Positions 8,792 to 23,996 of a stretch of DNA of 64,000 nucleotides are shown here, one piece after another (the stretch's first letter is position 1; every line of letters starts with the position of its first letter). Under the pieces are notes generated by a model. It was not told where the DNA came from and made no database searches. It saw only the letters and a list, made by a program, of their open reading frames with translations. The DNA is taken from assembly GCA_016281935.1 (NCBI GenBank), contig JAEEJN010000038.1, positions 1-64,000 of the forward strand, written 5' to 3'. The translations under genes and the position numbers were made by a program. The DNA comes from Bacillota bacterium. Lineage in GTDB: Bacteria > Bacillota > Clostridia > Christensenellales > UMGS416.

Positions 8792-9559
8792 ATGAACTGG
8801 AACAGTTTTCAGACAGACGCCTATGAAGGCCTGATCGCCGAAACGATCAAGATCCCCGGACATGATGGAAAGCCCATCAGGGCTTACTACTCCCGTCCCC
8901 TCGGAGCGGGCCCTCATCCCGGCATCGTTCTCATTCCTCATATGCCCGGCTGGGATGAGTGGTGCAGGGAGACTGCACGCCGGTTCTCTGCTCACGGGTT
9001 CGCGGTCCTGTGCCCCAACATCTACGAAGACTTCGGTCACGCGACGCCTCCGGAAGTTTCCGGAATGGCCAGAGATGCGGGCGGAGCTACGGACGCTGAC
9101 GTCATGGCGGATACAGCGGGGGCTCTGTCATTCCTGCGCAACAGCACGACCAGCAACGGAAAGGTCGGTGTCATCGGCATGTGCTCCGGCGGCCGCCATA
9201 CTTTCCTTGCGGCCTGTACACTGGATGGAGTGGATGCGGCAGTCGACTGCTGGGGCGGCGGCGTCGTATGTCCCCCTGAGCAGCTGAGTCCTGCACGCCC
9301 TGTGGCTCCTATCGATTATGCGGAGAATCTGGACTGCCCTCTGCTCGGTATTTTCGGCAATGAGGATCGAAGCCCCACGCCTGAGGATGTCAATATCCTG
9401 GAAGCGCGGCTGAAGGAACTTGGCAAGGACTACGAATTCCATCGCTACGACGGCGCAGGACACGGATTCTGGTATTATGACAGACCGATGTACCGTCAGA
9501 CGCAGGCTATGGAATCCTGGAACATCGTTCTGGATTTCTTTGACAGGACGCTGAAATGA
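8792..9559 (+). CDS. Dienelactone hydrolase family protein
   Basis: VGVIGMCSGGRHTF nucleophile Cys/Ser elbow; GAGHGFWYYDRP catalytic His; GGAGGC RBS. Confidence 0.8.
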   Translation: MNWNSFQTDAYEGLIAETIKIPGHDGKPIRAYYSRPLGAGPHPGIVLIPHMPGWDEWCRETARRFSAHGFAVLCPNIYEDFGHATPPEVSGMARDAGGATDADVMADTAGALSFLRNSTTSNGKVGVIGMCSGGRHTFLAACTLDGVDAAVDCWGGGVVCPPEQLSPARPVAPIDYAENLDCPLLGIFGNEDRSPTPEDVNILEARLKELGKDYEFHRYDGAGHGFWYYDRPMYRQTQAMESWNIVLDFFDRTLK

Positions 9560-10743
9560 CAGCCGGGAAGATCCCGTTTTCCCTGATCGTCAAACCTGCG
9601 GGTTCACGGTGCAATCTGCATTGCCGCTACTGTTATTATCTGGAAAAGTCCAAGTATTCTTCCCATGAGCGTCAGACGGTCATGGGAGACGATCTCCTGG
9701 AGGCCATGATCGTTCAGGCAATCCAGGGAAATCCGGGCCCCGTCGTGTCCTTTACCTGGCATGGCGGGGAACCGACCCTGGCGGGCCTTGATTTCTATCG
9801 AAAGGCTGTGGCATTCGAAAAGAAACACCTGCCGCGTGGCTGGCAGGCCTGGAACAATCTGCAGACGAACGGTCTTCTTCTGGATAATGAATGGTGCCGT
9901 TTTCTCCAGAAAGAGCATTTTGATGTCGGATTGAGCATCGACGGGACTGAAACTGTACATGATACCAATCGTGTCGATCTTGGCGGAAACGGTACCTGGA
10001 AGAGAGTAAGGGAATCCTGCAGACGTCTGCAGCGGACAGGCGTGCAGCCGGATCTTCTCTGCACAGTGACTTCTGCTTCCGCAGCCGATCCGGTCGGCGT
10101 ATACCGTTCTCTCCGGGAACTGGATACGGGGTGGATCCAATTCATCCCTGTGGTCGTATATCGGGAAGACGGTACTTTGACGGAGGAATCCGTTACGCCT
10201 GAAGCTTACGGAGATTTTCTTACTGCGGTTTTTGACGAATGGATGACGAACGATCTGGGCCGGCTCGATGTGCAGCTGTTTGCGGAATGTGCGAAAGTCT
10301 GGGCAGGCGGCTCGGCTGCCGTATGTACGATGGCTCCGACCTGCGGTCAGGTCCTTGTCGTGGAGGAAGACGGTGCCGTGTATGCCTGCGATCATTATGT
10401 GGATTCCGAACACAGACTGGGCAGCCTGGAACGCGATCGCCTTGACGATCTGGCTCACGGATCTTTTCAGCGTGCATTTGGACTCTCGAAACAGGATTCT
10501 CTGACAGAGACCTGTAAGCATTGCCCCTATTTGTCTGTCTGTTCCGGCGGATGCCCCAAAGACAGAACGGTAAAAGGGCCGGCAGGGGAAAAGGGACATT
10601 ATCTGCTCTGTCCAGGGCTTCTTCGCTTTTTTGCTCATGCTGAGCCCCGACTCAGAGAGATGATGAGGCTGTCCGGGGAGGGACGAACACCTGCGGAGAT
10701 CATGGAACGGATGAGAATCAATGGAAACAATATGCCCGGCTGA
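9556..10743 (+). CDS. Radical SAM protein, anaerobic sulfatase-maturating enzyme (anSME) type with SPASM domain
   Basis: CNLHCRYCYYLEK radical SAM cluster; WHGGEPTLAG; C-terminal CKHCPYLSVCSGGCPKDR SPASM cysteines; ATGA overlap with DLH gene. Confidence 0.88.
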   Translation: MTAGKIPFSLIVKPAGSRCNLHCRYCYYLEKSKYSSHERQTVMGDDLLEAMIVQAIQGNPGPVVSFTWHGGEPTLAGLDFYRKAVAFEKKHLPRGWQAWNNLQTNGLLLDNEWCRFLQKEHFDVGLSIDGTETVHDTNRVDLGGNGTWKRVRESCRRLQRTGVQPDLLCTVTSASAADPVGVYRSLRELDTGWIQFIPVVVYREDGTLTEESVTPEAYGDFLTAVFDEWMTNDLGRLDVQLFAECAKVWAGGSAAVCTMAPTCGQVLVVEEDGAVYACDHYVDSEHRLGSLERDRLDDLAHGSFQRAFGLSKQDSLTETCKHCPYLSVCSGGCPKDRTVKGPAGEKGHYLLCPGLLRFFAHAEPRLREMMRLSGEGRTPAEIMERMRINGNNMPG

Positions 10744-10959: not shown

Positions 10960-11022
10960 ACATACATTGATATGAACGGGACATTTATGCCCGTTTGTAT
11001 AAAATTTATTAGGAGGAACAAC

Positions 11023-12930
11023 ATGAGTAGGAAAATGAAGCTCGTTGCTGCCCTGCTTGCCGTCATGATGCTTGTTGGCGTGCTGGCCGGCTGCAAAGCG
11101 AACACTCCTGCCAACACTGTTTCCGGTCAGCAGATCACCGGTTCTACTACTGAACTGTCTGGTGACTGGGGCAACGCGTGGTGGACGAACAACGCGGCCG
11201 ATAATGACGTTCGCAGCCTGATGAACGGTTACGGCACTGTCGTCGTCAACCAGACCGGCGAGTACTTCTTCGATCCCACCGTTGTTGCTGAGCATTCCGA
11301 TTCTACCGATGCTGACGGCAACAAGACCTTCACCATGAAGATCAACAAGGGTCTGAAGTACAACGACGGCAAAGAGATCACCGCGAAGGACTATGTGGCT
11401 TACATGCTGCTGGCCTATTCTCCCATCATCAAGGATATGGGCGGTAAGGTCACTCCTTCCCAGGTCTACGGCGCTGCGGCCTATCAGGCCGGCGAAGCCA
11501 CTGAACTTGCCGGCGTCCGTCTGCTGGGCGACCTCGAGTTCTCCGTGACCATCAATGCCGACTTCCTGCCTTACTTCTACGACATCACCTATGCTGGCGT
11601 GTCTCCTCTGCCCATGCAGATGTGGCTGCCTGAAGGTGTTGACGTGAAGGATGACGGCAACGGCGCTTACTTCACCGGCCTGGATGCCGACAAGGCTAAG
11701 GAGACCGTTGAAAAGGCCCGTTACCTGAGCGAGAAGCGCGTCTGCTCCGGCCCCTATCAGCTGGAGAGCTTTGACCAGTCTTCCCTGCAGGCGGTCCTGA
11801 CCGTGAACCCCAACTATGCCGGCAACTTTGAAGGCCAGAAGGCTTCCATCGCCAAGGTCATCTATGTCAAGGTTATCACCGAGACCGAATTCGATCAGCT
11901 CTCCACCGGCCAGGTGGACGTCCTGCAGACTCTGTCTGACGGCGAAGAGATCGACAAGGCTCTGGACCTTGAGGCCAAGGGCGGCTTCAAAACTGCTAAC
12001 TATCTGCGCGCCGGCTACGGCAAGCTGATGTTCCAGTGCGACTTCGGTCCCACCCAGTTCATCGGTGTCCGTCATGCCATCGCTTACCTGCTTGACCGCA
12101 ACGACTTCGCCACCACCTTCACCGGCGGTTACGGATCCGTGGTGCACGGCCCCTATGGCCTGGCCATGTGGATGTATGAGAAAGGCGAAGAGGAGCTCAA
12201 CGCCAAGCTGAACACCTACACCTATTCTCTGGATTCCGCTATCAAGGAACTCGAAGAAGCCGGATTCACCCTGAACGAGAAGGGCGAACCCTATGCCGGC
12301 GAAGGCCCGCGCTATAAGAAGGTCACTGCTGAAGAGGCTGGCGACTATGCTCATAACGTGACCCTGGACGACGGCACCATCCTGATGCCCTGCATCATCG
12401 AGTGGTCTTCTTCCGAGAACAACCCCGTGTCTGAGCTGCTGGCTGTCAAACTGGCCAACACCGAAGCCACCAAGAGCGCCGGCGTCGTCATCAACCAGCA
12501 CGTGATGACCTTCACCGAGCTCCTGAACTACATGTATCGTGACTCTTCTCAGGGCGACCAGTACGCCGTGCCCACCTATGGCATGTACAACCTGGCCACC
12601 AACTTCAGCCCCGTGTATGACATGTCCTACAGCTGGACTTCCGATCCCGAGCTGGTCGCTCAGGGATACAACACCAACTTCCTGTTCGACGACAAGCTGG
12701 ATAAGCTGTCCATGGACATGGTGTACGGCGTTGAATCCGGCGACAATGATACCTATCTGAAGCTCTGGCTCGAATACATTGAGCGCTGGAACGAGCTGCT
12801 GCCCGAAGTGCCGCTGTACTCCAATGACTATCACGACGTGTATGCCGACAAGTTCGATCATTACGACGTGTCCTCTTACTGGAGCAGCATCGATCAGCTG
12901 CCCTATATGACCGCGAAAGCCGAGAAGTAA
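11023..12930 (+). CDS. ABC transporter substrate-binding lipoprotein, SBP_bac_5 (peptide/oligosaccharide) family
   Basis: Signal peptide with lipobox LAGC; FTMKINKGLKYNDGKEITAKDYVAYMLL; AGGAGG RBS before MSRK. Confidence 0.88.
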   Translation: MSRKMKLVAALLAVMMLVGVLAGCKANTPANTVSGQQITGSTTELSGDWGNAWWTNNAADNDVRSLMNGYGTVVVNQTGEYFFDPTVVAEHSDSTDADGNKTFTMKINKGLKYNDGKEITAKDYVAYMLLAYSPIIKDMGGKVTPSQVYGAAAYQAGEATELAGVRLLGDLEFSVTINADFLPYFYDITYAGVSPLPMQMWLPEGVDVKDDGNGAYFTGLDADKAKETVEKARYLSEKRVCSGPYQLESFDQSSLQAVLTVNPNYAGNFEGQKASIAKVIYVKVITETEFDQLSTGQVDVLQTLSDGEEIDKALDLEAKGGFKTANYLRAGYGKLMFQCDFGPTQFIGVRHAIAYLLDRNDFATTFTGGYGSVVHGPYGLAMWMYEKGEEELNAKLNTYTYSLDSAIKELEEAGFTLNEKGEPYAGEGPRYKKVTAEEAGDYAHNVTLDDGTILMPCIIEWSSSENNPVSELLAVKLANTEATKSAGVVINQHVMTFTELLNYMYRDSSQGDQYAVPTYGMYNLATNFSPVYDMSYSWTSDPELVAQGYNTNFLFDDKLDKLSMDMVYGVESGDNDTYLKLWLEYIERWNELLPEVPLYSNDYHDVYADKFDHYDVSSYWSSIDQLPYMTAKAEK

Positions 12931-13056: not shown

Positions 13057-14043
13057 ATGGCAAAATACATTCTTAAACGTTTGGCGTATATGCTGGTCGT
13101 ATTCACGATCATCGCCGCGCTGATGTTTTTCCTGTATAACCTGATCCCAGGCGATCCGGCCCGTGCCGAAGTTGAGGCTTTGAAGAGTACGCTCAAACCT
13201 GAACAGTATGAACAGATGTATCAGGAAGCACGCGCCAGACTTGGATTGGATCAGCCGATGGTGGTCAGATTCTTCAAGTGGTACTTCGGTATCTGGACAG
13301 GCCATTTCGGCTTCTCCAACTATTACAAGGCCAACGTCATCGATATCGTGAAGGAGCCCATGATGAACACCCTGTTCATCAATATCTTCTCCACCTTCCT
13401 GGCATTAGGCTGCACGATTCCTCTGGGTATCTACTGTGCTGTACATCAGCAGAGCAAATTCGACCAGGGCGTGCAGGTGGGTACGATCGTCGGGTATTCC
13501 ATTCCCGGCTACATCATCGCTCTGATCTTCATTTACATCTTCTCCGTTACACTGCGCTGGTTCCCGGTTTCGGGATCCAAAGCTCCCGGATCGAGCCTCA
13601 CGGGATTCCCGGCACTGATGGAGAGACTCTATTACATCTGTCTGCCTCTGATCGTAATGACGTTCAGTGCTCTTGGCGGCATGACACGTTATGTCCGCGC
13701 TGCCATGATTGATGCTCTCAGCATGGATTACATCAGGACCGCAAGAGCGAAGGGCCTTCGCGAAAAGGTCGTCATCTATTCGCATGCATGGCGCAACGCA
13801 CTTCTTCCCGTCATCACGCTGATCATAGGATGGTTCCTGGGAATCTTCTCCGGATCCATCATCATCGAGAACACGTTCAACCTGAACGGCATGGGCCAGT
13901 TGTACTACAAAGGCCTGACGAACCAGGACTATGAACTCGTTCTTGCGATGCAGATGTTCTATACAGCCGTATCCCTGGTCGGAGCTCTGCTGATCGACTT
14001 GAGTTACGGCCTGGTCGACCCGCGCGTCCGCGTCAACAAGTAA
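13057..14043 (+). CDS. ABC transporter permease, DppB/OppB type
   Basis: YILKRLAYMLVVF...LIPGDPA; EAA-type loop DYIRTARAKGLREKVVI. Confidence 0.92.
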   Translation: MAKYILKRLAYMLVVFTIIAALMFFLYNLIPGDPARAEVEALKSTLKPEQYEQMYQEARARLGLDQPMVVRFFKWYFGIWTGHFGFSNYYKANVIDIVKEPMMNTLFINIFSTFLALGCTIPLGIYCAVHQQSKFDQGVQVGTIVGYSIPGYIIALIFIYIFSVTLRWFPVSGSKAPGSSLTGFPALMERLYYICLPLIVMTFSALGGMTRYVRAAMIDALSMDYIRTARAKGLREKVVIYSHAWRNALLPVITLIIGWFLGIFSGSIIIENTFNLNGMGQLYYKGLTNQDYELVLAMQMFYTAVSLVGALLIDLSYGLVDPRVRVNK

Positions 14044-14053
14044 GGAGGAAAAG

Positions 14054-15883
14054 ATGGCTGAAGAAAAGAAAAAAGGTTTCTTCTCTTTCCTCCGTTTTGG
14101 AAAGAAGAAAGAAGTCGATATCTTCCAGGAAGAACAGGTGCAGAGCCCGCTTCGCACCATCATTTCCAATTTCCTGCACAATCGTATCGCCATGACGGGT
14201 CTGATCGTGTTCCTTGCGATCTTCGTATTCGTCATGATCGGCCCCCACATCTGGATCCTGGATCTGGGGTATGAGGACAATACGCAGGTCAACGTAGCCC
14301 CCGGCCTCGATATGATGAGTTATCCCAGAGCGCTTGTAAACGAAGGCGTGCAGAAGATTGCCGTCGGCAATACCTTCTCTGTGGGCCTTTCCAAGGAAGG
14401 ACACGTATATACCTGGGGCAAGACGAAGATCACTGAAGTCGTCGATATCCGCGAGATTCCTGAAGAAGTGAAAAAAGCGACGATCATCGATATCGCCGCA
14501 GGCCAGGACCACGTCGTGGCTGTGGATGATAAAGGCAAGGTCTATGTCTGGGGCAATACCCGTCAGGGACAGAACAAAGTCCCGAGCGAGATGATGCAGC
14601 TTGAGAACGGCGACCGGATCAAGCAGATGTCTGCCGGTTATCAGGCGTCCGTTGCCGTTACGGAACAGGGAAAGCTATTTGTCTGGGGCAATGCCAACAT
14701 CTTTGATGCAAAGATCAACAGTGCCGTGAAGGAAAAGCTGATTGAAAAAGCAGTCTGCACTTCCTATGCATACATCGTTCTGACGAAGGATGGCCAGGTG
14801 CTGTATCCCGGATTTGAGTCCAATGCTTTCTCCAATATCCCCGAGAGCCTGTCTTCCGGAGTTGTGGATATTGCCGCTTCTTCCCAGACTGTTGCTGCTC
14901 TGAAAGCGGACGGCACTGTCGTGGTTTGGGGCAACTCCTCCAACGGTGAGGATTTGCTTCCTGATTTCCCGTCCAAGATCATTAATATCGAAGGTGGTCG
15001 TCTGCATTATTCCGCACTCATGGAAAACGGTGACGTCATCAGCTGGGGCAGCAATAAGAACGGACAGATCAACCTGCCGGCAAGCGTCAACTCCGGCGAA
15101 AAGCTCGTCAATGTTTTCGTGGGAAACAACCAGAACTACGGAATCACCGAATCCGGAAAGATCAAGACATGGGGTCATGTAGGTTACCTGATGGGGACCG
15201 ACAACCTCGGCCGTGATATCCTGACACGCCTCGTCAACGGCGGCAGAATGACCATGACCGTCGGTGCGGTTTCCGTTGCCATCTCTCTTGTCATCGGCGT
15301 TGTGTTCGGTTCACTGGCCGGATACTTCGGAGGCAAGGTCGACATGATCATCATGCGTGTGTCCGAAGTGGTCGGCGGTCTGCCGTTCCTCCCGTTTGCA
15401 ATGATTCTGTCTGCCATCGTACAGGCGACGATGAACCAGACACAGAGAATCTACATGATCATGGTGGTCCTGGGCGTTCTGTCCTGGCCCGGACTGTGCC
15501 GTCTCGTACGTGCGCAGATCCTGGCTGCCCGTGAAGAGGAATTCGTCACGGCAGCAAAGGCCATGGGTGTCGAAGAGCTCCAGATCGTATTCAAACATAT
15601 CCTTCCCAATGTTCTGTCCATCATCGTCGTTAACGCGACACTGGACTTTGCCACATGCATGCTGACGGAATCTTCGCTGTCCTATCTCGGATTCGGCGTA
15701 GCTCCGCCGCAGCCCACCTGGGGCAACATGCTGACCGGCGCCAACAACTCGGTCGTGATCCAGCAGTACTGGTGGCGTTGGGTATTCCCCTCCGCGATCT
15801 TCGGTCTGTGCACGATCTGCATCAATACTATCGGCGACGGCCTGCGCGACGCGATCGACCCCAAGAGCGATCGTCAGAGATAG
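14054..15883 (+). CDS. ABC transporter permease, DppC/OppC type, with an inserted RCC1-like seven-repeat beta-propeller
   Basis: N-terminal TM1 (IAMTGLIVFLAIFVFVMIGPHIW), seven RCC1-like repeats aa ~92-375, then canonical GTDNLGRDILTRLVNGG...EEFVTAAKAMGVEELQIVFKHILPN. Confidence 0.93.
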   Translation: MAEEKKKGFFSFLRFGKKKEVDIFQEEQVQSPLRTIISNFLHNRIAMTGLIVFLAIFVFVMIGPHIWILDLGYEDNTQVNVAPGLDMMSYPRALVNEGVQKIAVGNTFSVGLSKEGHVYTWGKTKITEVVDIREIPEEVKKATIIDIAAGQDHVVAVDDKGKVYVWGNTRQGQNKVPSEMMQLENGDRIKQMSAGYQASVAVTEQGKLFVWGNANIFDAKINSAVKEKLIEKAVCTSYAYIVLTKDGQVLYPGFESNAFSNIPESLSSGVVDIAASSQTVAALKADGTVVVWGNSSNGEDLLPDFPSKIINIEGGRLHYSALMENGDVISWGSNKNGQINLPASVNSGEKLVNVFVGNNQNYGITESGKIKTWGHVGYLMGTDNLGRDILTRLVNGGRMTMTVGAVSVAISLVIGVVFGSLAGYFGGKVDMIIMRVSEVVGGLPFLPFAMILSAIVQATMNQTQRIYMIMVVLGVLSWPGLCRLVRAQILAAREEEFVTAAKAMGVEELQIVFKHILPNVLSIIVVNATLDFATCMLTESSLSYLGFGVAPPQPTWGNMLTGANNSVVIQQYWWRWVFPSAIFGLCTICINTIGDGLRDAIDPKSDRQR

Positions 15884-15893
15884 GAGGTAGAAA

Positions 15894-16883
15894 ATGGCAT
15901 TATTGGAAATGCGTGATTTGCACACCTATTTCAAGACCAAGCGCGGTATCGTGAAGGCAGTCAACGGTGTGTCCTACAGCGTAGAAGCCGGAAGAACTCT
16001 CGGCGTAGTCGGTGAGTCCGGTTCAGGAAAATCCGTATCCGCCATGAGCATGCTGAGGCTTCTTGACGGCAACGGCTATATCGACAGCGGTGAGATCATT
16101 TTCGATGGCAGGGATCTGACGAAGATCTCCATGAACGATATGTATAAGGTCCGCGGGAACGAGATTTCGGTAATCTTCCAGGAACCCATGACGTCCCTGA
16201 ATCCCGTGTTCACCGTCGAAAAGCAGCTCAGTGAGCCTTTCATGATCCATCAGGGCATGAACAAGAAGGAAGCGGCGATCAAGAGCGTTGAGATGCTCTC
16301 CGACGTTAAGATCCCGAATCCTGAAGTTGTGGCGAAGCAGTATCCCCACCAGCTCTCCGGCGGTATGCGTCAGCGTGTCATGATCGCCATGGCACTGGCC
16401 TGCAAACCCAAGCTTCTGATTGCGGACGAGCCCACAACGGCCCTGGACGTGACGATTCAGGCGCAGATCCTGCGTCTTATGAATGATTTGAAGGCCGAAC
16501 ACGGTACTTCGATCCTGTTCATTACTCATGACCTCGGTGTTATCAACCAGATGGCGGATGATGTTGCGGTCATGTACTGCGGACAGGTCGTGGAGAAAGC
16601 ACCTGCCCGGACTATCTTCAGTCCTTCCACCCGTTTCTCCCATCCTTATACTCAGGGCCTCATGGATTCCATCCCGCGCCTTGACACTCCGGCAAACGTC
16701 CGTCTGGATGCAATTCCCGGTGCTGTTCCTCATCCGCTGGATCTCCCCAAGGGCTGCAAGTTCGCACCTCGCTGCAAGTACTGCACGAAGCGCTGCATGG
16801 AAGAAGAGCCGGAACTGGTGGATATCTCGGACGAGCAGCAGATCCGCTGCTTCTATCCGGAAAAGGAGGCAAGGAATGGATAA
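15894..16883 (+). CDS. ABC transporter ATP-binding protein, DppD/OppD type
   Basis: Walker A GESGSGKS, LSGGMRQR signature, LLIADEPTTALD; C-terminal oligo-HPY Cys motif CKFAPRCKYCTKRC. Confidence 0.93.
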   Translation: MALLEMRDLHTYFKTKRGIVKAVNGVSYSVEAGRTLGVVGESGSGKSVSAMSMLRLLDGNGYIDSGEIIFDGRDLTKISMNDMYKVRGNEISVIFQEPMTSLNPVFTVEKQLSEPFMIHQGMNKKEAAIKSVEMLSDVKIPNPEVVAKQYPHQLSGGMRQRVMIAMALACKPKLLIADEPTTALDVTIQAQILRLMNDLKAEHGTSILFITHDLGVINQMADDVAVMYCGQVVEKAPARTIFSPSTRFSHPYTQGLMDSIPRLDTPANVRLDAIPGAVPHPLDLPKGCKFAPRCKYCTKRCMEEEPELVDISDEQQIRCFYPEKEARNG

Positions 16884-18399
16884 CAAGAAGGTACTGCTGC
16901 GCATCAGCAACCTGAAGCAGTATTTCCCCCTGCCTCAGCGCGGACTTTACGTCAAGGCGAACGACGGCATCACACTGGACATTTATGAGGGCGAAGTCTT
17001 CGGCCTCGTAGGTGAATCCGGATGCGGTAAGTCCACTCTCGGCCGTACGATCCTTCAGCTCTACAAACAGACGGATGGCCGTACCATGTACTATGGCCGT
17101 ACGATCGATTCTCTGGCACCTAAGTACGTCATCCGTACGATCAAGACCCTTGATAAGCAGCGCAAGAAGCTCGCTTCTCTTGAGGCTGCCCGCGATAAGA
17201 TGCAGGCTGAGTACGATGCCCTGACGACGGACAAAGCCCGTTTCGCCATGAAGGACAATCTTGATCAGGCAATCAAGGCTGCAAACGATGCCCTGCTTGA
17301 TATGGCCAATATCGTCGGCGGCTTCATGATCGTTGACGATCTGGAACCTGTAAAGGCGATCTTCACTGAAGAATACAACAAATCGCTGGAACTGCATAAT
17401 CTTGAGCTCAAGCGTCAGAAGGCCCAGCTTAAATACGATTCTGCTGCCTACCGCGTTGACAACAAAGGTCAGGAGAAATATCGTCCCGCTATGGAACGTG
17501 CTAAGGCGGAACTGGACGCGATCGATGCCAGCATCGAAAAGGTTCAGAAAGAAATCGATGAGGTCCGCAGACGCATCGATGAGATGCGCACCAAGTATGC
17601 GGATAATGAGGAATTCCAGAAGCTTGAAGAGCTCCGTGACGACGGTATCGATCTGGCCCGTCTGGACTATAACGAGATGCGTCAGGTCCGTTCGGATATG
17701 CAGCTCATCTTCCAGGATCCCTATTCTTCATTGAATCCCCGTATGACGGTCGGCCAGATCGTCGGCGAAGGCATGCTGGCACATGAATACTTCGACAAGA
17801 ACGACGATCGGATGCAGGAAGAGATCCTGCGGGTCATGGATGAATGCGGACTTGCGCCTTATTTCCTCCACCGCTATCCGCATCAGTTCTCCGGAGGCCA
17901 GCGTCAGCGTATCGGTATCGCGCGCGCTCTCGCAGTGCGGCCCCGTTTCGTTGTCTGCGATGAAGCTGTTTCCGCATTGGACGTGTCGATCCAGTCCCAG
18001 ATCATTAATCTGCTTCAGGATCTTCGCGATAAGCAGAATCTGACCTATATGTTCATCACACACGATCTGTCCGTTGTGAAATACATCTCGGACCGTATCG
18101 GCGTCATGTATCTGGGTGCCATGGTGGAACTCTCCGATTCCCAGGAGATGTTCGATCATCCGCTGCATCCCTATACGGAAGCTCTGCTTTCCGCCATCCC
18201 GACGACGGATGAAGAAGCTAAGGAGCTGGTGATCCTTGAGGGCGATATCCCGAGCCCCGTGAATCCCCCTAAAGGCTGCAAGTTCAATACGCGCTGCCGC
18301 TACTGCACTGAGATTTGCACGAAGGTCACTCCGGAATGGATCGAAGTCCGTCCGAACCACTTCGTCGCATGCCATCATATCCTGGAGAAGAATCTGTAA
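16876..18399 (+). CDS. ABC transporter ATP-binding protein, DppF/OppF type, with ~180-aa charged coiled-coil-like insertion
   Basis: Walker A GESGCGKST (aa ~46-54), insertion aa ~83-262, then RSDMQLIFQDPYSSLNPRMTVG, FSGGQRQRIGIARAL, CKFNTRCRYCTEIC; AAAGGAGGCAAGGA RBS before ATG 16876. Confidence 0.92.
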   Translation: MDNKKVLLRISNLKQYFPLPQRGLYVKANDGITLDIYEGEVFGLVGESGCGKSTLGRTILQLYKQTDGRTMYYGRTIDSLAPKYVIRTIKTLDKQRKKLASLEAARDKMQAEYDALTTDKARFAMKDNLDQAIKAANDALLDMANIVGGFMIVDDLEPVKAIFTEEYNKSLELHNLELKRQKAQLKYDSAAYRVDNKGQEKYRPAMERAKAELDAIDASIEKVQKEIDEVRRRIDEMRTKYADNEEFQKLEELRDDGIDLARLDYNEMRQVRSDMQLIFQDPYSSLNPRMTVGQIVGEGMLAHEYFDKNDDRMQEEILRVMDECGLAPYFLHRYPHQFSGGQRQRIGIARALAVRPRFVVCDEAVSALDVSIQSQIINLLQDLRDKQNLTYMFITHDLSVVKYISDRIGVMYLGAMVELSDSQEMFDHPLHPYTEALLSAIPTTDEEAKELVILEGDIPSPVNPPKGCKFNTRCRYCTEICTKVTPEWIEVRPNHFVACHHILEKNL

Positions 18400-18792: not shown

Positions 18793-21360
18793 ATGAGCAA
18801 AGTTTCGATTCAAACTCAAAACAAGCGCTTCCCCGTTGCTCCGGATCTGTACGGTATCTTCTTTGAAGACATCAACCGTTCGGGCGACTCCGGTCTCTAT
18901 CCCGAGATGATCCGCAACCGTTCCTTCGAGGACTCCATTCCTCCGGAACGCTGCACTGTGACGGAAGACGGCGTATCCTTCACGACGCCCGAAGGTTGGA
19001 CCGATCAGTTCAATGGCGGTGAAGGCCTGACCCGCTGGGTTGAGAAGAACAAGTACCCGGCGACCCCGATCCCTGCATGGTATGCGGAAAAGGCAGAAAT
19101 GGCGCTGGACTGTGCTGATACCCTGAACGCCAAGCGCCTGGTCTCTCTGGACGTGAAGTTCACTCCCGGAGGCAAAGTCTACAATATCGGATATTGCGGC
19201 GTGCCCCAGGAAAAAGGCAAGATCTACAACTTCTACATGTTTGCCAAAGCGGTCGGTGAAGCTGTTCCCGTAACTGTCGCGATCGAATCCGAAGCGGGCG
19301 AAGTATATGCCGAAAAGACCTTCTGTGTATCTCCCGCGAGCTTCTGCCGTTATGACGCATCCTTTGCGGCGATTGCAGACGACAAGAATGCGCGCCTTGT
19401 CCTGAAGTCCTGCTGTGGCGGAGAAGTCAAGTTCGGCTTCACCTCGCTCATGCCTGCAGACACTTATAACGGCCATGGGCTGCGCAAGGATATCCTGGAA
19501 GTTCTGAAGGGCATGAACCCGCACTTCCTGCGTTTCCCCGGCGGCTGCATCGTGGAAGGTTTCACCTATGAGACCGCCATGCGTTTCCCGAACACGATCG
19601 GACCCGTCTGGGAGCGTCCTTCCCATATGCTCATGTGGCACTACAAGACGACGAACGGCTTGGGCTATCATGAGTATCTGCAGATGTGCGAAGACCTGAA
19701 CATGGAGCCCATGTACGTGTTCAACTGCGGCCTGACCTGCCAGGGACGCGGTCCAGAGTATTTCGAGGGAGAAGAACTGGATCAGCTTCTGCAGGAAGCC
19801 ATCGATGCCATCGAGTACGCCATTGCGCCTGCCGATTCCAAGTGGGGCAAGGTCCGTGCTGCTGCCGGCCATCCGGATCCCTTCAAGATGACTTATGTGG
19901 AGATTGGCAACGAGAACAACGGCGAAGTCTATAACGTGCGTTACAAGAAATGCTATGATGCCCTGAAAGCCCGTTTCCCGCAGATCAAATACATTTCCAA
20001 CACGCATACGGAACGCGATGGCCTGCCTACGGAGATCGCGGATGAGCATTATTACTCCACGACCGAGTTTTTTGCCGAAAGTCTGCACATGTTCGATAAG
20101 TATCCGCGCCAGGCAGACGGCGCTCCCGAGATTTTCCTTGGTGAGATCGCGGTGAACCAGGGTGCCAGCGGCAAGGTCTACGCTTCCATCGGTGAAGCTA
20201 TGTACATGATCGGCATCGAGCGGAACCAGGATATCGTACGGCTCGCATCCTACGCGCCTCTGCTTGAGAACGTGAACTTCTCCAGCTGGTATCCGAACCT
20301 TGTCTGCTTCGACAATACACGCGTTTACCCGATCCCGACCTATTATGCGTGGAAACTCTTCAGTAGCTACCGCGGAAAGGATGTCGTTGAGTCCTGTGAA
20401 GAAACCGGCCCCGTGTATCGCAAAGTCTGGGGACTTCCTTCCATCCAGCTGACGGCTGGCATGCGCGTACGCAATCCCATCTTCAATGGGAAACCTGCTG
20501 AGCCCTATCAGTCCGTTCTGGGCTACATGGACAAGCAGGGCGACGAGTATGTGATCAAGCCCATGGAAGAGAAGCAGATCGACGGCGATATCCGCATGAC
20601 CCGCTTCTACAAGATGGCACGTGAAATGGGCTTCCTCAACGGTGCTCAGAGTGATTCCCTGACTGGCCGTGCAGCCTTCATCAAGAGAATCTTCGGCCGC
20701 AGTATGGTCGTCCTCGGCGATGAAGCGAATGAAAAGAACGTGGTCGGCGATTTCGAAGTGGAAGTCTTTGCCGAAGAGGGCAAGGATATCTGCATCGGCG
20801 CCTTCACGTCCCGTATTCCCCAGAGCCAGTACGATATCGATGCCGGCCATGTGACTGAGAAGTGGGGCTATATGGAGCTTCAGCCCTTCCGCTGGGAGAT
20901 CTCCGACGGTGTCAGCACTCTGCGCGGCGGTCATGCTTTCCGTCCGAAAGACTTTGCGGAGCCTGCAAATGTCAAGATCAATTACGGCGCCTTCAACAAG
21001 CTGCGCTATCAGACCACGGCAGAGAGCATCAAGCTTTATGTGAATGGTGAACTTGTACAGGAAGCCGAGCTTCCGAACTTCCAGAAGGTCGCTACGGTCG
21101 CTACCACGACTGACGATGAAGTCATCCTGAAGGCTGTGAACATCGGCGCAACAGCCGAGCCCGTGGAGATCAGCCTGGACTGCGATGTGGAGTCTGACTA
21201 CAAAGTCTGTCTCTTTACCGGCGATCCGGATGCCATGAACTCTCTCGAGAAGCCTGACAACGTCCACGATGTGGAGTTCTGCTGCTCCGGAGCCGGCAAG
21301 AGCTTCACTTACGAGGCACCTGCCTATTCCATCAACGTCCTGATCCTGAAAAAGAAATAA
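18793..21360 (+). CDS. GH51 alpha-L-arabinofuranosidase
   Basis: LYGIFFEDINRSGDSGLYPEMIRNRSFED; RFPGGCIVEGF; VEIGNENNGEVYN; FLGEIAVNQG; AGGAGG RBS. Confidence 0.9.
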   Translation: MSKVSIQTQNKRFPVAPDLYGIFFEDINRSGDSGLYPEMIRNRSFEDSIPPERCTVTEDGVSFTTPEGWTDQFNGGEGLTRWVEKNKYPATPIPAWYAEKAEMALDCADTLNAKRLVSLDVKFTPGGKVYNIGYCGVPQEKGKIYNFYMFAKAVGEAVPVTVAIESEAGEVYAEKTFCVSPASFCRYDASFAAIADDKNARLVLKSCCGGEVKFGFTSLMPADTYNGHGLRKDILEVLKGMNPHFLRFPGGCIVEGFTYETAMRFPNTIGPVWERPSHMLMWHYKTTNGLGYHEYLQMCEDLNMEPMYVFNCGLTCQGRGPEYFEGEELDQLLQEAIDAIEYAIAPADSKWGKVRAAAGHPDPFKMTYVEIGNENNGEVYNVRYKKCYDALKARFPQIKYISNTHTERDGLPTEIADEHYYSTTEFFAESLHMFDKYPRQADGAPEIFLGEIAVNQGASGKVYASIGEAMYMIGIERNQDIVRLASYAPLLENVNFSSWYPNLVCFDNTRVYPIPTYYAWKLFSSYRGKDVVESCEETGPVYRKVWGLPSIQLTAGMRVRNPIFNGKPAEPYQSVLGYMDKQGDEYVIKPMEEKQIDGDIRMTRFYKMAREMGFLNGAQSDSLTGRAAFIKRIFGRSMVVLGDEANEKNVVGDFEVEVFAEEGKDICIGAFTSRIPQSQYDIDAGHVTEKWGYMELQPFRWEISDGVSTLRGGHAFRPKDFAEPANVKINYGAFNKLRYQTTAESIKLYVNGELVQEAELPNFQKVATVATTTDDEVILKAVNIGATAEPVEISLDCDVESDYKVCLFTGDPDAMNSLEKPDNVHDVEFCCSGAGKSFTYEAPAYSINVLILKKK

Positions 21361-21390
21361 ACAACATAGAATCAGGTAAAACGACACTGG

Positions 21391-21415
21391 GACGGCCCTC
21401 TGGGCCGTCTTTTTC
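21391..21415 (+). terminator. Rho-independent terminator
   Basis: GACGGCCC-TCT-GGGCCGTC TTTTT. Confidence 0.8.
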
Positions 21416-21419
21416 GGTA

Positions 21420-21448
21420 TTGACCTGGGCATGGAACAGGACTAGAAT
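21420..21448 (+). promoter_or_regulatory. Sigma70/sigmaA-type promoter for the next GH51 gene
   Basis: TTGACC, 17-bp spacer, TAGAAT; begins 5 bp after the preceding terminator. Confidence 0.6.
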
Positions 21449-21488
21449 GAAGGTACTTATTATATCCCATGAAAAGGAGAGAAGAACC

Positions 21489-23996
21489 ATGAGCAGGATA
21501 TCTATCCAGACGAAAGAAAAGCGGTTCCCCACAGCGCCTCACCTGTATGGACTGTTTTTCGAAGACATCAACCGTTCGGGCGATTCAGGTCTCTACCCGG
21601 AAATGATCCGTAACCGTGCTTTTGAGGATTCGATTCCCCCTGAACGCTGCACAGTGGCCGAAGACGGCAGTACGTTTGTGACCCCGGAAGGCTGGTCAGA
21701 CCAGTTCAACGGCGGTGAAGGTCTGCCCCGCTGGGTCCGTGAAGACAAGATCGCCTATACGCCCGTTCCAGCCTGGTACACTGACGGCGCCGAGATGGCA
21801 CTCGACTACGAAGACAAGCTGAATGCCAAGCGCCTGGTATCCCTGGACGTCAAGTTCGCCCCCGGCGGCAAGGTCTGCAACATCGGCTTCGCAGGCGTGC
21901 CCCAGGAGAAGGGCAAGATCTACAACTTCTATATGTTTGCCAAGGCGATCGGCGCGGCCGTCAAAGTGACCGTAGCCATCGAATCCGCAGCGGGCAAAGT
22001 GTACGCCGAGAAGACCTTCAACGTCTCCGACGCCAGCTTCTGCCGCTATGACGCGTCTTTCGCGGCCGTCGCGGACGACAAGGATGCCCGCCTGGTCCTG
22101 AAGTCCTGCTGCGGCGGTGAAGTGAAGTTCGGCTTCACGTCCCTCATGCCCGCCGATACCTACAACGGCCACGGTATGCGCACGGATCTCATGGAGACCC
22201 TGAAGGCCATCAACCCCAAGTTCCTGCGCTTCCCGGGCGGCTGCATCGTGGAAGGTTTCACCTATGAGACCGCCATGCGCTTCCCGAACATCATCGGGCC
22301 CGTCTGGGAACGTCCGTCCCACATCCTTATGTGGCATTACCGCACGACGAACGGTCTGGGCTATCATGAATATCTGCAGATCTGCGAAGACCTTGGCCTC
22401 GAGCCCATGTATGTCTTCAACTGCGGCCTGACCTGCCAGGGACGCGCGCCCGAGTACTTTGAGGGCGAAGAGCTCCAGAAACTTCTGCAGGAAGCAATCG
22501 ACGCCATTGAATACGCCACTGCGCCTGCGGATTCCAAGTGGGGCAAGGTCCGTGCGGCCGCCGGCCATCCGGATCCCTTCAAGATGACCTACATCGAGAT
22601 CGGCAACGAGAACAGCGGCGAAGTCTACAACGTGCGCTACAAGATGTGCTATGACGAACTGAAGAAACGCTTCCCGTTCATCAAGTATATTTCCAATACC
22701 CATACGGAGCGCGACGGCCTGCCTACCGAGATCGCCGACGAGCATTACTACAACACGCCTGAGTTCTTTGCCGAGAACCTGCATATGTTCGACAACTATC
22801 CGCGGCAGAAGGACGGAGGCCCCGAGATCTTCCTGGGCGAGATCGCCGCGAACCAGGGTGCCGCCTGCGGCAAGGTATACGCTTCCATCAGTGAAGCCAT
22901 GTACATGATCGGCATCGAGCACAACCAGGACATCGTGCGTCTGGCCTCCTACGCGCCCCTGTTCGAGAACGTCCACTACATCGGCTGGTACCCGAACCTG
23001 ATCTGCTTCGACAACACGAAGTCCTACGCGATTCCGACATACTATGCCTGGAAGCTCTTCGGCAACGCCCGCGGCAAGGACGTCGTCAAATCCTGTGAGG
23101 AGACGACGCCCATCTACCGTCCTGTCAAGGGCATGCCCTCCATCCAGGGCAGCGTGGGCACCCGTTTCCGCAGCCCCGTCTTCAACGGCAAGGCCGTGAA
23201 GCCTTTCATCGAAGTGACCGGCTATGTGAAGGAAGAGAACGGTGAATACGTGACGACCGCGCCTACGGAGGACCAGATCGATCCCCGCATGCTGCGCTTC
23301 GCCAGCCGTCCCGGCATGCCCAATCCTTATGACCGTGCCTTCATCGTCCTGGGCGAAGCCGCCGACGAAGAAACGGTCAATGGCGTCTTTGAAGTGGAAG
23401 TCTTCGCGGAGGAAGGCAAGGACATCGGCATCGGCCTGTTCACGTGCCGCCCGCCGCGCAGTGTCTTCGTGCTCGACGAGACCCGCGTGCCCAAGGAATG
23501 GGATCCCGGACGCCTGCAGCCCTTTGCCTGGGCTATCGCGAACGGTGTCAGCACCTTGACCGAAGGCCGTTGGATGCGCCGCCGCAACGTGATCGCGCCT
23601 GCGGACGTGAAAGTCAACTACGGTGCCTGGAACAAGCTGCGCTATGAAGTGACCGCCGAGACCATCAAGCTGTACGTCAACGGCGAGCTGGTTCAGGAAG
23701 GCGCCGTGCCGAACTTCCAGAAGATCGCGTCCGTCACTACGACCACTGACAACGAAGTCATCGTCAAGATCGTGAACATCAGCGCTACAGCCGAGCCCGT
23801 GGAGATCAACCTCGACTGCGCCGTATGCCCGGACTACGAGGTCCGCTGCTTCACCGGCGATCCTGATGCCGAGAACTCGCTGGACGCGCCCACGAACGTG
23901 TGCGACGCGGTCTGCAAAGCGACCGGTGCCTCCTCGGACTTCACGTTCGAAGCGCCCGCGTATTCCATCAACGTGCTCGTGCTGAAAAAAGCATAA
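21489..23996 (+). CDS. GH51 alpha-L-arabinofuranosidase, close paralog of 18793-21360
   Basis: LYGLFFEDINRSGDSGLYPEMIRNRAFEDSIPPERCTV; YIEIGNENSGEVYN; FLGEIAANQG. Confidence 0.9.
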   Translation: MSRISIQTKEKRFPTAPHLYGLFFEDINRSGDSGLYPEMIRNRAFEDSIPPERCTVAEDGSTFVTPEGWSDQFNGGEGLPRWVREDKIAYTPVPAWYTDGAEMALDYEDKLNAKRLVSLDVKFAPGGKVCNIGFAGVPQEKGKIYNFYMFAKAIGAAVKVTVAIESAAGKVYAEKTFNVSDASFCRYDASFAAVADDKDARLVLKSCCGGEVKFGFTSLMPADTYNGHGMRTDLMETLKAINPKFLRFPGGCIVEGFTYETAMRFPNIIGPVWERPSHILMWHYRTTNGLGYHEYLQICEDLGLEPMYVFNCGLTCQGRAPEYFEGEELQKLLQEAIDAIEYATAPADSKWGKVRAAAGHPDPFKMTYIEIGNENSGEVYNVRYKMCYDELKKRFPFIKYISNTHTERDGLPTEIADEHYYNTPEFFAENLHMFDNYPRQKDGGPEIFLGEIAANQGAACGKVYASISEAMYMIGIEHNQDIVRLASYAPLFENVHYIGWYPNLICFDNTKSYAIPTYYAWKLFGNARGKDVVKSCEETTPIYRPVKGMPSIQGSVGTRFRSPVFNGKAVKPFIEVTGYVKEENGEYVTTAPTEDQIDPRMLRFASRPGMPNPYDRAFIVLGEAADEETVNGVFEVEVFAEEGKDIGIGLFTCRPPRSVFVLDETRVPKEWDPGRLQPFAWAIANGVSTLTEGRWMRRRNVIAPADVKVNYGAWNKLRYEVTAETIKLYVNGELVQEGAVPNFQKIASVTTTTDNEVIVKIVNISATAEPVEINLDCAVCPDYEVRCFTGDPDAENSLDAPTNVCDAVCKATGASSDFTFEAPAYSINVLVLKKA

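Follow-up and report, generated by a model that had tools for sequence, protein, structure and literature searches.

Opp/Dpp importers serve the peptide nutrition of bacteria and also carry peptide signals and antibiotics. In the window analysed here, a stretch of 64,000 nucleotides from a Bacillota bacterium, a gene set of this kind is complete in the order SBP-OppB-OppC-OppD-OppF, with every gene on the + strand. It begins with a family-5 (cluster C) substrate-binding lipoprotein (SBP; 11023..12930; SBP_bac_5, E 2.3e-34), whose reading frame opens at 10972 and whose likely start is at 11023 (MSRKMKLVAALLAVMMLVGVLAGC). An OppB/DppB-type permease follows (13057..14043; BPD_transp_1, 3.5e-34), and the third gene encodes an OppC/DppC-type permease of 609 aa with an inserted propeller (14054..15883; Pfam and an AlphaFold model). 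Two oligo_HPY-containing ATPases complete the set: OppD (15894..16883; ABC_tran 1.4e-29, oligo_HPY 3.4e-19) and OppF (16873..18399; ABC_tran, oligo_HPY), the latter with a coiled-coil-like insert of ~188 aa (17134-17697) before the Q-loop. The binding protein that the preliminary description associated with the permease is thus encoded by the operon itself. A second Opp/Dpp-type permease pair was not found in the host genome, whose assembly is 88% complete and comprises 117 contigs.

OppB aligns end to end with OppB of 8z21 and DppB of 8z1v and retains the extracytoplasmic scoop after TM1 (about residues 30-72); a scoop region of 34-53 aa is found in 62 operons of the propeller clade. The best solved relative of the SBP, whose length varies between about 600 and 800 aa in the clade, is OppA (9p48, 7.7e-36). 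Its model (pLDDT 92.3) has B. subtilis AppA and lactococcal OppA as nearest folds, so oligopeptides are the likely cargo predicted for the importer.

Inspected by eye, the flanks hold a dienelactone-hydrolase-like gene (8792-9559) adjoining a radical-SAM gene (9556-10743), whose product has CxxxCxxC and C-terminal Cys clusters and resembles anaerobic sulfatase-maturating enzymes. On the 3' side of the operon (18793-23996) lie two adjoining, very similar genes of ~855 aa that look like GH51-type arabinofuranosidases in tandem duplication. We dropped the GH51-like genes as a general clue to the substrate, because the flanks vary among relatives, in which just the five transporter genes recur, and because the fold of the SBP is of the peptide type.

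A propeller grafted into an ordinary OppC

The reading frame of the permease is intact, and its unusual part, 14327-15178, corresponds to residues 92-375. An OppC_N region with TM1 (residues 31-66; 14144..14251; model helices 32-42 and 44-66) precedes the propeller (residues 92-374; 14327..15175). The exit junction HVGYLMGTDNLGRD (375-388; 15176..15217), which aligns with the HWLGTDnxGRD of ordinary OppC, leads into the TM2-TM6 core with the EAA coupling helix at 496-503 (389-601; 15218..15856; model helices, OppC 8z21 match). Pfam finds both components in the one protein: RCC1_2 (E 2.8e-40, 135.5 bits, cut-off 22) and RCC1 (E 8.6e-10, 39.5 bits, cut-off 21.7) on one side, OppC_N at 31-76 (E 2.4e-8, 34.2 bits, cut-off 23.9) and BPD_transp_1 at 415-604 (E 7.6e-34, 117.5 bits, cut-off 26.4) on the other. 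All four pass, with E values far past chance. The Pfam model WD40_RLD (PF25390), which represents a full RCC1-like domain, scores the window protein at 139.5 bits, below its cut-off of 150 bits, which a relative (L104) passes with 155.1. Among the Opp models, the NCBIfam equivalog Opp4C (NF045476) ranks top at 310.4 bits but stays below its cut-off of 350, and we therefore do not file the permease as Opp4.

The graft is clean. When nine ordinary OppC proteins are aligned with the permease, the insert falls exactly between the 'PPS' that follows TM1 and the 'HWLGTD..GRD' that precedes TM2, and not one ordinary OppC residue aligns inside 92-372. With a mean conservation of 0.75, the exit junction is the most conserved non-membrane stretch; the propeller, at 0.50, is more variable than the transmembrane domain (TMD; 0.75).

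An AlphaFold2 model of the whole permease, built with 57 aligned relatives (pLDDT 90.6, pTM 0.85; propeller mostly above 90), places helices of the OppC core at residues 44-66 and 389-601 and resolves residues 99-374 into seven successive beta-meanders of three strands each. Blade 1 (99-122; 14348..14419; strands 99-104, 108-113, 118-122) ends in VYTWG at 122, blade 2 (144-167; 14483..14554; strands 144-149, 153-158, 163-167) in VYVWG at 167, and blade 3 (189-212; 14618..14689; strands 189-194, 198-203, 208-212) in LFVWG at 212. Blade 4 (230-253; 14741..14812; strands 230-235, 240-244) is the least canonical: its end, VLYPG at 253, has PG for WG, and its third strand (249-250) is very short. 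Blade 5 (270-293; 14861..14932; strands 270-275, 279-284, 289-293) closes with VVVWG at 293, blade 6 (309-332; 14978..15049; strands 309-314, 318-323, 328-332) with VISWG at 332, and blade 7 (351-374; 15104..15175; strands 351-357, 360-365, 370-374) with IKTWG at 374. The prediction is thus of a seven-bladed, closed propeller mounted on an OppC core that is ordinary in all other respects. The membrane part has 41% identity to E. coli OppC (8z21) at an rmsd of 1.9, and Foldseek matches to 8z21_B, 8j5q_C and 8z1w_B identify the six-TM OppC fold with its EAA helix. The seven tandem repeats with these endings, their closure into one propeller, the pairing of RCC1 and BPD_transp_1 in a single chain and the insertion between TM1 and TM2 had all been proposed from the DNA, and all are borne out.

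The RCC1-like fold proposed at the same time needs refinement. The repeats do belong to the RCC1 superfamily, but the nearest fold of the modelled insert is BLIP-II rather than eukaryotic RCC1: BLIP-II (1jtd_B) is the best PDB match (Foldseek E 6.3e-20, TM-score 0.85 on the BLIP-II chain) and also the best by sequence (phmmer 2e-24). UVR8 and other RCC1-like domains come next and fit less well, with TM-scores of about 0.6 on UVR8 and 0.42-0.51 on RCC1.

The EAA coupling helix docks the ATPases (PMC12136057) and is therefore cytoplasmic. Since three TM helices separate it from the propeller, and the N-terminus ahead of TM1 is lysine-rich, the topology implies that the propeller must be outside the cell, which agrees with the outward orientation assumed in the preliminary description.

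An inherited trait of one importer lineage

Could the fusion be a misassembly, a frameshift or a chimeric gene of one metagenome bin? The incomplete host assembly invites the question, and recurrence in many genomes answers it: about 60 intact genes share the architecture, among them those of two isolates, Clostridium sp. Cult1 (L085) and Butyrivibrio sp. AE2015 (L094), and of two single-contig genomes (G418, G436). We regard the chance of an artefact as negligible. At the level of the order, 34 of 396 genomes from 23 of 142 genera match at E 1e-70 or better, 32 of them over the full length. The propeller permease occurs in 17 of 391 genomes of the class (one match partial), and 14 of 399 genomes of the phylum, most from other classes, match at E 1e-100. 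We extracted 62 intact full-length fusion genes, mostly from Clostridia, with additions from Erysipelotrichia and Tissierellia; the survey of homologs thus upholds the fusion together with its conserved operon, all five genes being present at 57 of the 62 loci and the SBP alone missing at the remaining five. The seven other sampled genomes of the host's own family lack the fusion and have different OppC genes. The fusion operon was also seen in single bins labelled Treponema (L066) and Anaerolineaceae (L052), which reflects either transfer or mislabelled bins.

In a tree built from just the membrane part, the fusion proteins group together as a single clade (100/100 support) that requires one change, and no loss of the propeller was found within it among the sampled sequences. 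Most likely, judging from this tree, one fusion event founded the propeller clade, and the patchy distribution most likely stems from gain and loss of the whole operon. As far as these sequences tell, the propeller is an old, conserved trait of the entire importer lineage and not one oddity. Distances of the operon proteins correlate weakly (0.14-0.26) with those of MreC from the same genomes (L196-L221), which makes MreC a poor rate control, yet hints at movement of the operon and suggests that it often passes horizontally between lineages. No relatives of the propeller permease were found among viral contigs; we rejected a viral or mobile origin, as there is no viral relative and the Foldseek matches in BFVD are unrelated RCC1 proteins.

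The coiled-coil-like insert of OppF is present in most, though not all, relatives of the operon. A joint gain with the propeller was considered and is not obligatory, because some propeller relatives (L059, L060, L089) have a short OppF of 334-349 aa.

The propeller is not the only addition at this position of OppC. Other Clostridia carry a different insertion of ~300 aa in the TM1-TM2 loop (L008:1498-3267, - strand; L009:430-2199, + strand; L160:538-2193, + strand), in which Pfam has no match, and shorter ones measure ~130 aa (L153/L154) and ~120 aa (L013). The loop seems to be a recurrent site for added outer domains, of which, among the insertions seen, the propeller alone has a recognisable fold. 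Two further OppC genes (L157:796-2199 and L159:790-2193, both + strand) have an N-terminal extension of ~180 residues with a membrane-embedded look before OppC_N, and L156, which groups with L157, is similar. L157 and the L091 paralogue were rejected as TM1-TM2 insertions, as Pfam puts their extra part N-terminally, before OppC_N. This reassignment leaves the RCC1 clade unaffected.

Propeller and binding protein diverge together

We compared pairwise divergences between the operon proteins by partial correlation and by the residuals of a cubic regression on four slow proteins. Across 46 operons, the propeller follows the SBP (partial r 0.54) and hardly the TMD in its own chain (0.09), and the known contact between OppB and the membrane part of OppC is recovered (partial r 0.68). 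The residual correlation of SBP and propeller is 0.53 (Mantel p 0.0005, from a test that is too lenient because it permutes related taxa as if they were exchangeable). As a fast, cytoplasmic control, the OppF insert gives residual correlations of 0.06 with the SBP and 0.11 with the propeller, at a mean distance (1.89) that is near saturation. A further set, of 33 operons drawn almost entirely from other genomes, yields 0.53 (partial) and 0.45 (residual) for SBP and propeller, and 0.21 for the propeller and its own membrane part. With MreC as an outside control, in 23 genomes, the SBP-propeller residual is 0.32 and the MreC residuals are -0.07 and 0.01; in this small set, the partial correlation of the propeller is 0.41 with the SBP and 0.34 with its own membrane part. 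Physical linkage explains the pattern poorly: the OppB gene lies between those of the SBP and OppC, yet OppB divergence does not track the propeller. A mirror-tree signal can also arise from shared extracytoplasmic selection or similar substitution rates instead. Altogether, co-divergence lends moderate support to a partnership of propeller and SBP.

Discussion

What could a propeller do on the outer face of a peptide importer? In the E. coli Dpp system, DppA caps DppB and DppC from outside, and the scoop that DppB forms between TM1 and the helix after it reaches into the cleft of DppA (PMC12136057). The scoop is kept in OppB here and the propeller sits in the equivalent loop of OppC, which would place it beside the landing site of the SBP. 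We lean, by a modest degree, towards the view that the propeller is a permanent, built-in platform on which the peptide-binding lipoprotein of its operon docks, with a function like that of MalF P2. Grafted once into the TM1-TM2 loop of OppC, and rigid, it would hold or orient the SBP above the entrance formed by OppB and OppC, across from the scoop of OppB. Such docking may render delivery more efficient and help to seal the cavity, as with MalF P2 and MalE. The pointers are the fold, the clean graft, the single clade, the five-gene operon, the kept scoop and the co-divergence, as well as the nature of BLIP-II, the fold relative, which is secreted and binds proteins (PMC9218822). Against it counts that ordinary Opp/Dpp systems function without such a domain. 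The role at the SBP, as dock or gate, suggested in the preliminary description thus gains indirect support from co-divergence, and we continue to infer rather than observe it. The second receptor and the glycan/peptidoglycan-binding role, put forward there as well, gained no positive support in this analysis.

Other roles have to be weighed against docking. The propeller might be a second receptor or selectivity filter that binds peptides or another soluble ligand and passes it to the SBP or the pore, giving the importer two outer sites. Ligand binding on one face is common among propellers, the SBP of the operon belongs to the OppA/AppA type for long peptides, and conserved H/Q/N residues occupy the A-B loops (H153, Q197, H318, Q360); these residues, however, match the general pattern of RCC1 repeats and are not necessarily the sign of a site, conserved polar residues showed no unusual clustering, and the propeller is more variable than the TMD (0.50 vs 0.75), although ligand specificity could vary as well. 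We hold this reading to be unlikely, and would say the same of its bolder form, a built-in second receptor for peptides or a surface partner that gates SBP delivery and would define a distinct importer class with two outer recognition modules. That BLIP-II is a dedicated binder of proteins, beta-lactamases, might also mean that the propeller grips the cell wall or another surface protein (for instance a peptidase, or one that is PBP-like) and thereby stations the importer at sites of peptide release. No recurrent partner gene lies beside the operon, with flanks judged by size and similarity to the window genes, and the co-divergence seen is with the SBP; we give this option a similarly small chance. 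A passive role as a spacer or as an aid to stable OppC folding, or a neutral presence at a site that permits insertions, appears slightly more improbable still. The unrelated insertions of ~300, ~130 and ~120 aa in the same OppC loop of other Clostridia show that the site tolerates insertions, but the propeller has not been lost across a divergent clade, its seven blades and repeat signature residues are conserved, and its co-divergence with the SBP speaks against passivity.

Finally, we would like to place the propeller permease among known systems. It resembles DppABCDF/OppABCDF (E. coli 8z1v-8z1z, 8z21; M. tuberculosis OppABCD 8j5q) in its five-gene set, its six-TM OppC core with EAA helix, its OppB with a scoop region and its cluster C SBP; unlike those systems, in which the outer TM1-TM2 segment of DppC/OppC is short, it has a 283-residue propeller at that place. 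In MalFGK2-MalE, too, an outer loop of a single permease subunit bears an inserted folded domain, MalF P2, which differs in fold, sits in another loop (TM3-TM4) and belongs to a sugar importer; its contact with the SBP has been shown experimentally, whereas that of the permease propeller is proposed. MalF P2 interacts with MalE throughout the cycle (as cited in PMC3150292 and PMC8134467). With BLIP-II (1jtd, 3qhy), the propeller shares an extracellular location and seven blades, a likeness of both fold and sequence, but BLIP-II is a free secreted protein with 26-28% identity to it. The blades of BLIP-II are three-stranded, as in our model. The RCC1-like domains of RCC1, UVR8 and HERC belong to the same repeat superfamily (Pfam RCC1_2, RCC1) and also have seven blades, yet are eukaryotic and intracellular, with longer blades. 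The transporter is therefore of the Opp/Dpp kind and the propeller of the RCC1/BLIP-II kind; what is novel is their combination. Among the open-licence papers searched, we came across no account of an ABC permease with an RCC1/BLIP-II propeller, in line with the earlier remark that no such fusion was known to be described, although such proteins abound in public genomes.

Where structures have been solved, it is the scoop of OppB/DppB that acts on the SBP. In the present lineage, a large outer domain has been added to the second permease subunit and kept over a long history, in Clostridia as well as other Bacillota from digesters and the guts of animals. The lineage is in effect a natural experiment in the holding and release of an SBP, and its propeller is a module that is exposed at the cell surface and specific to one importer lineage.
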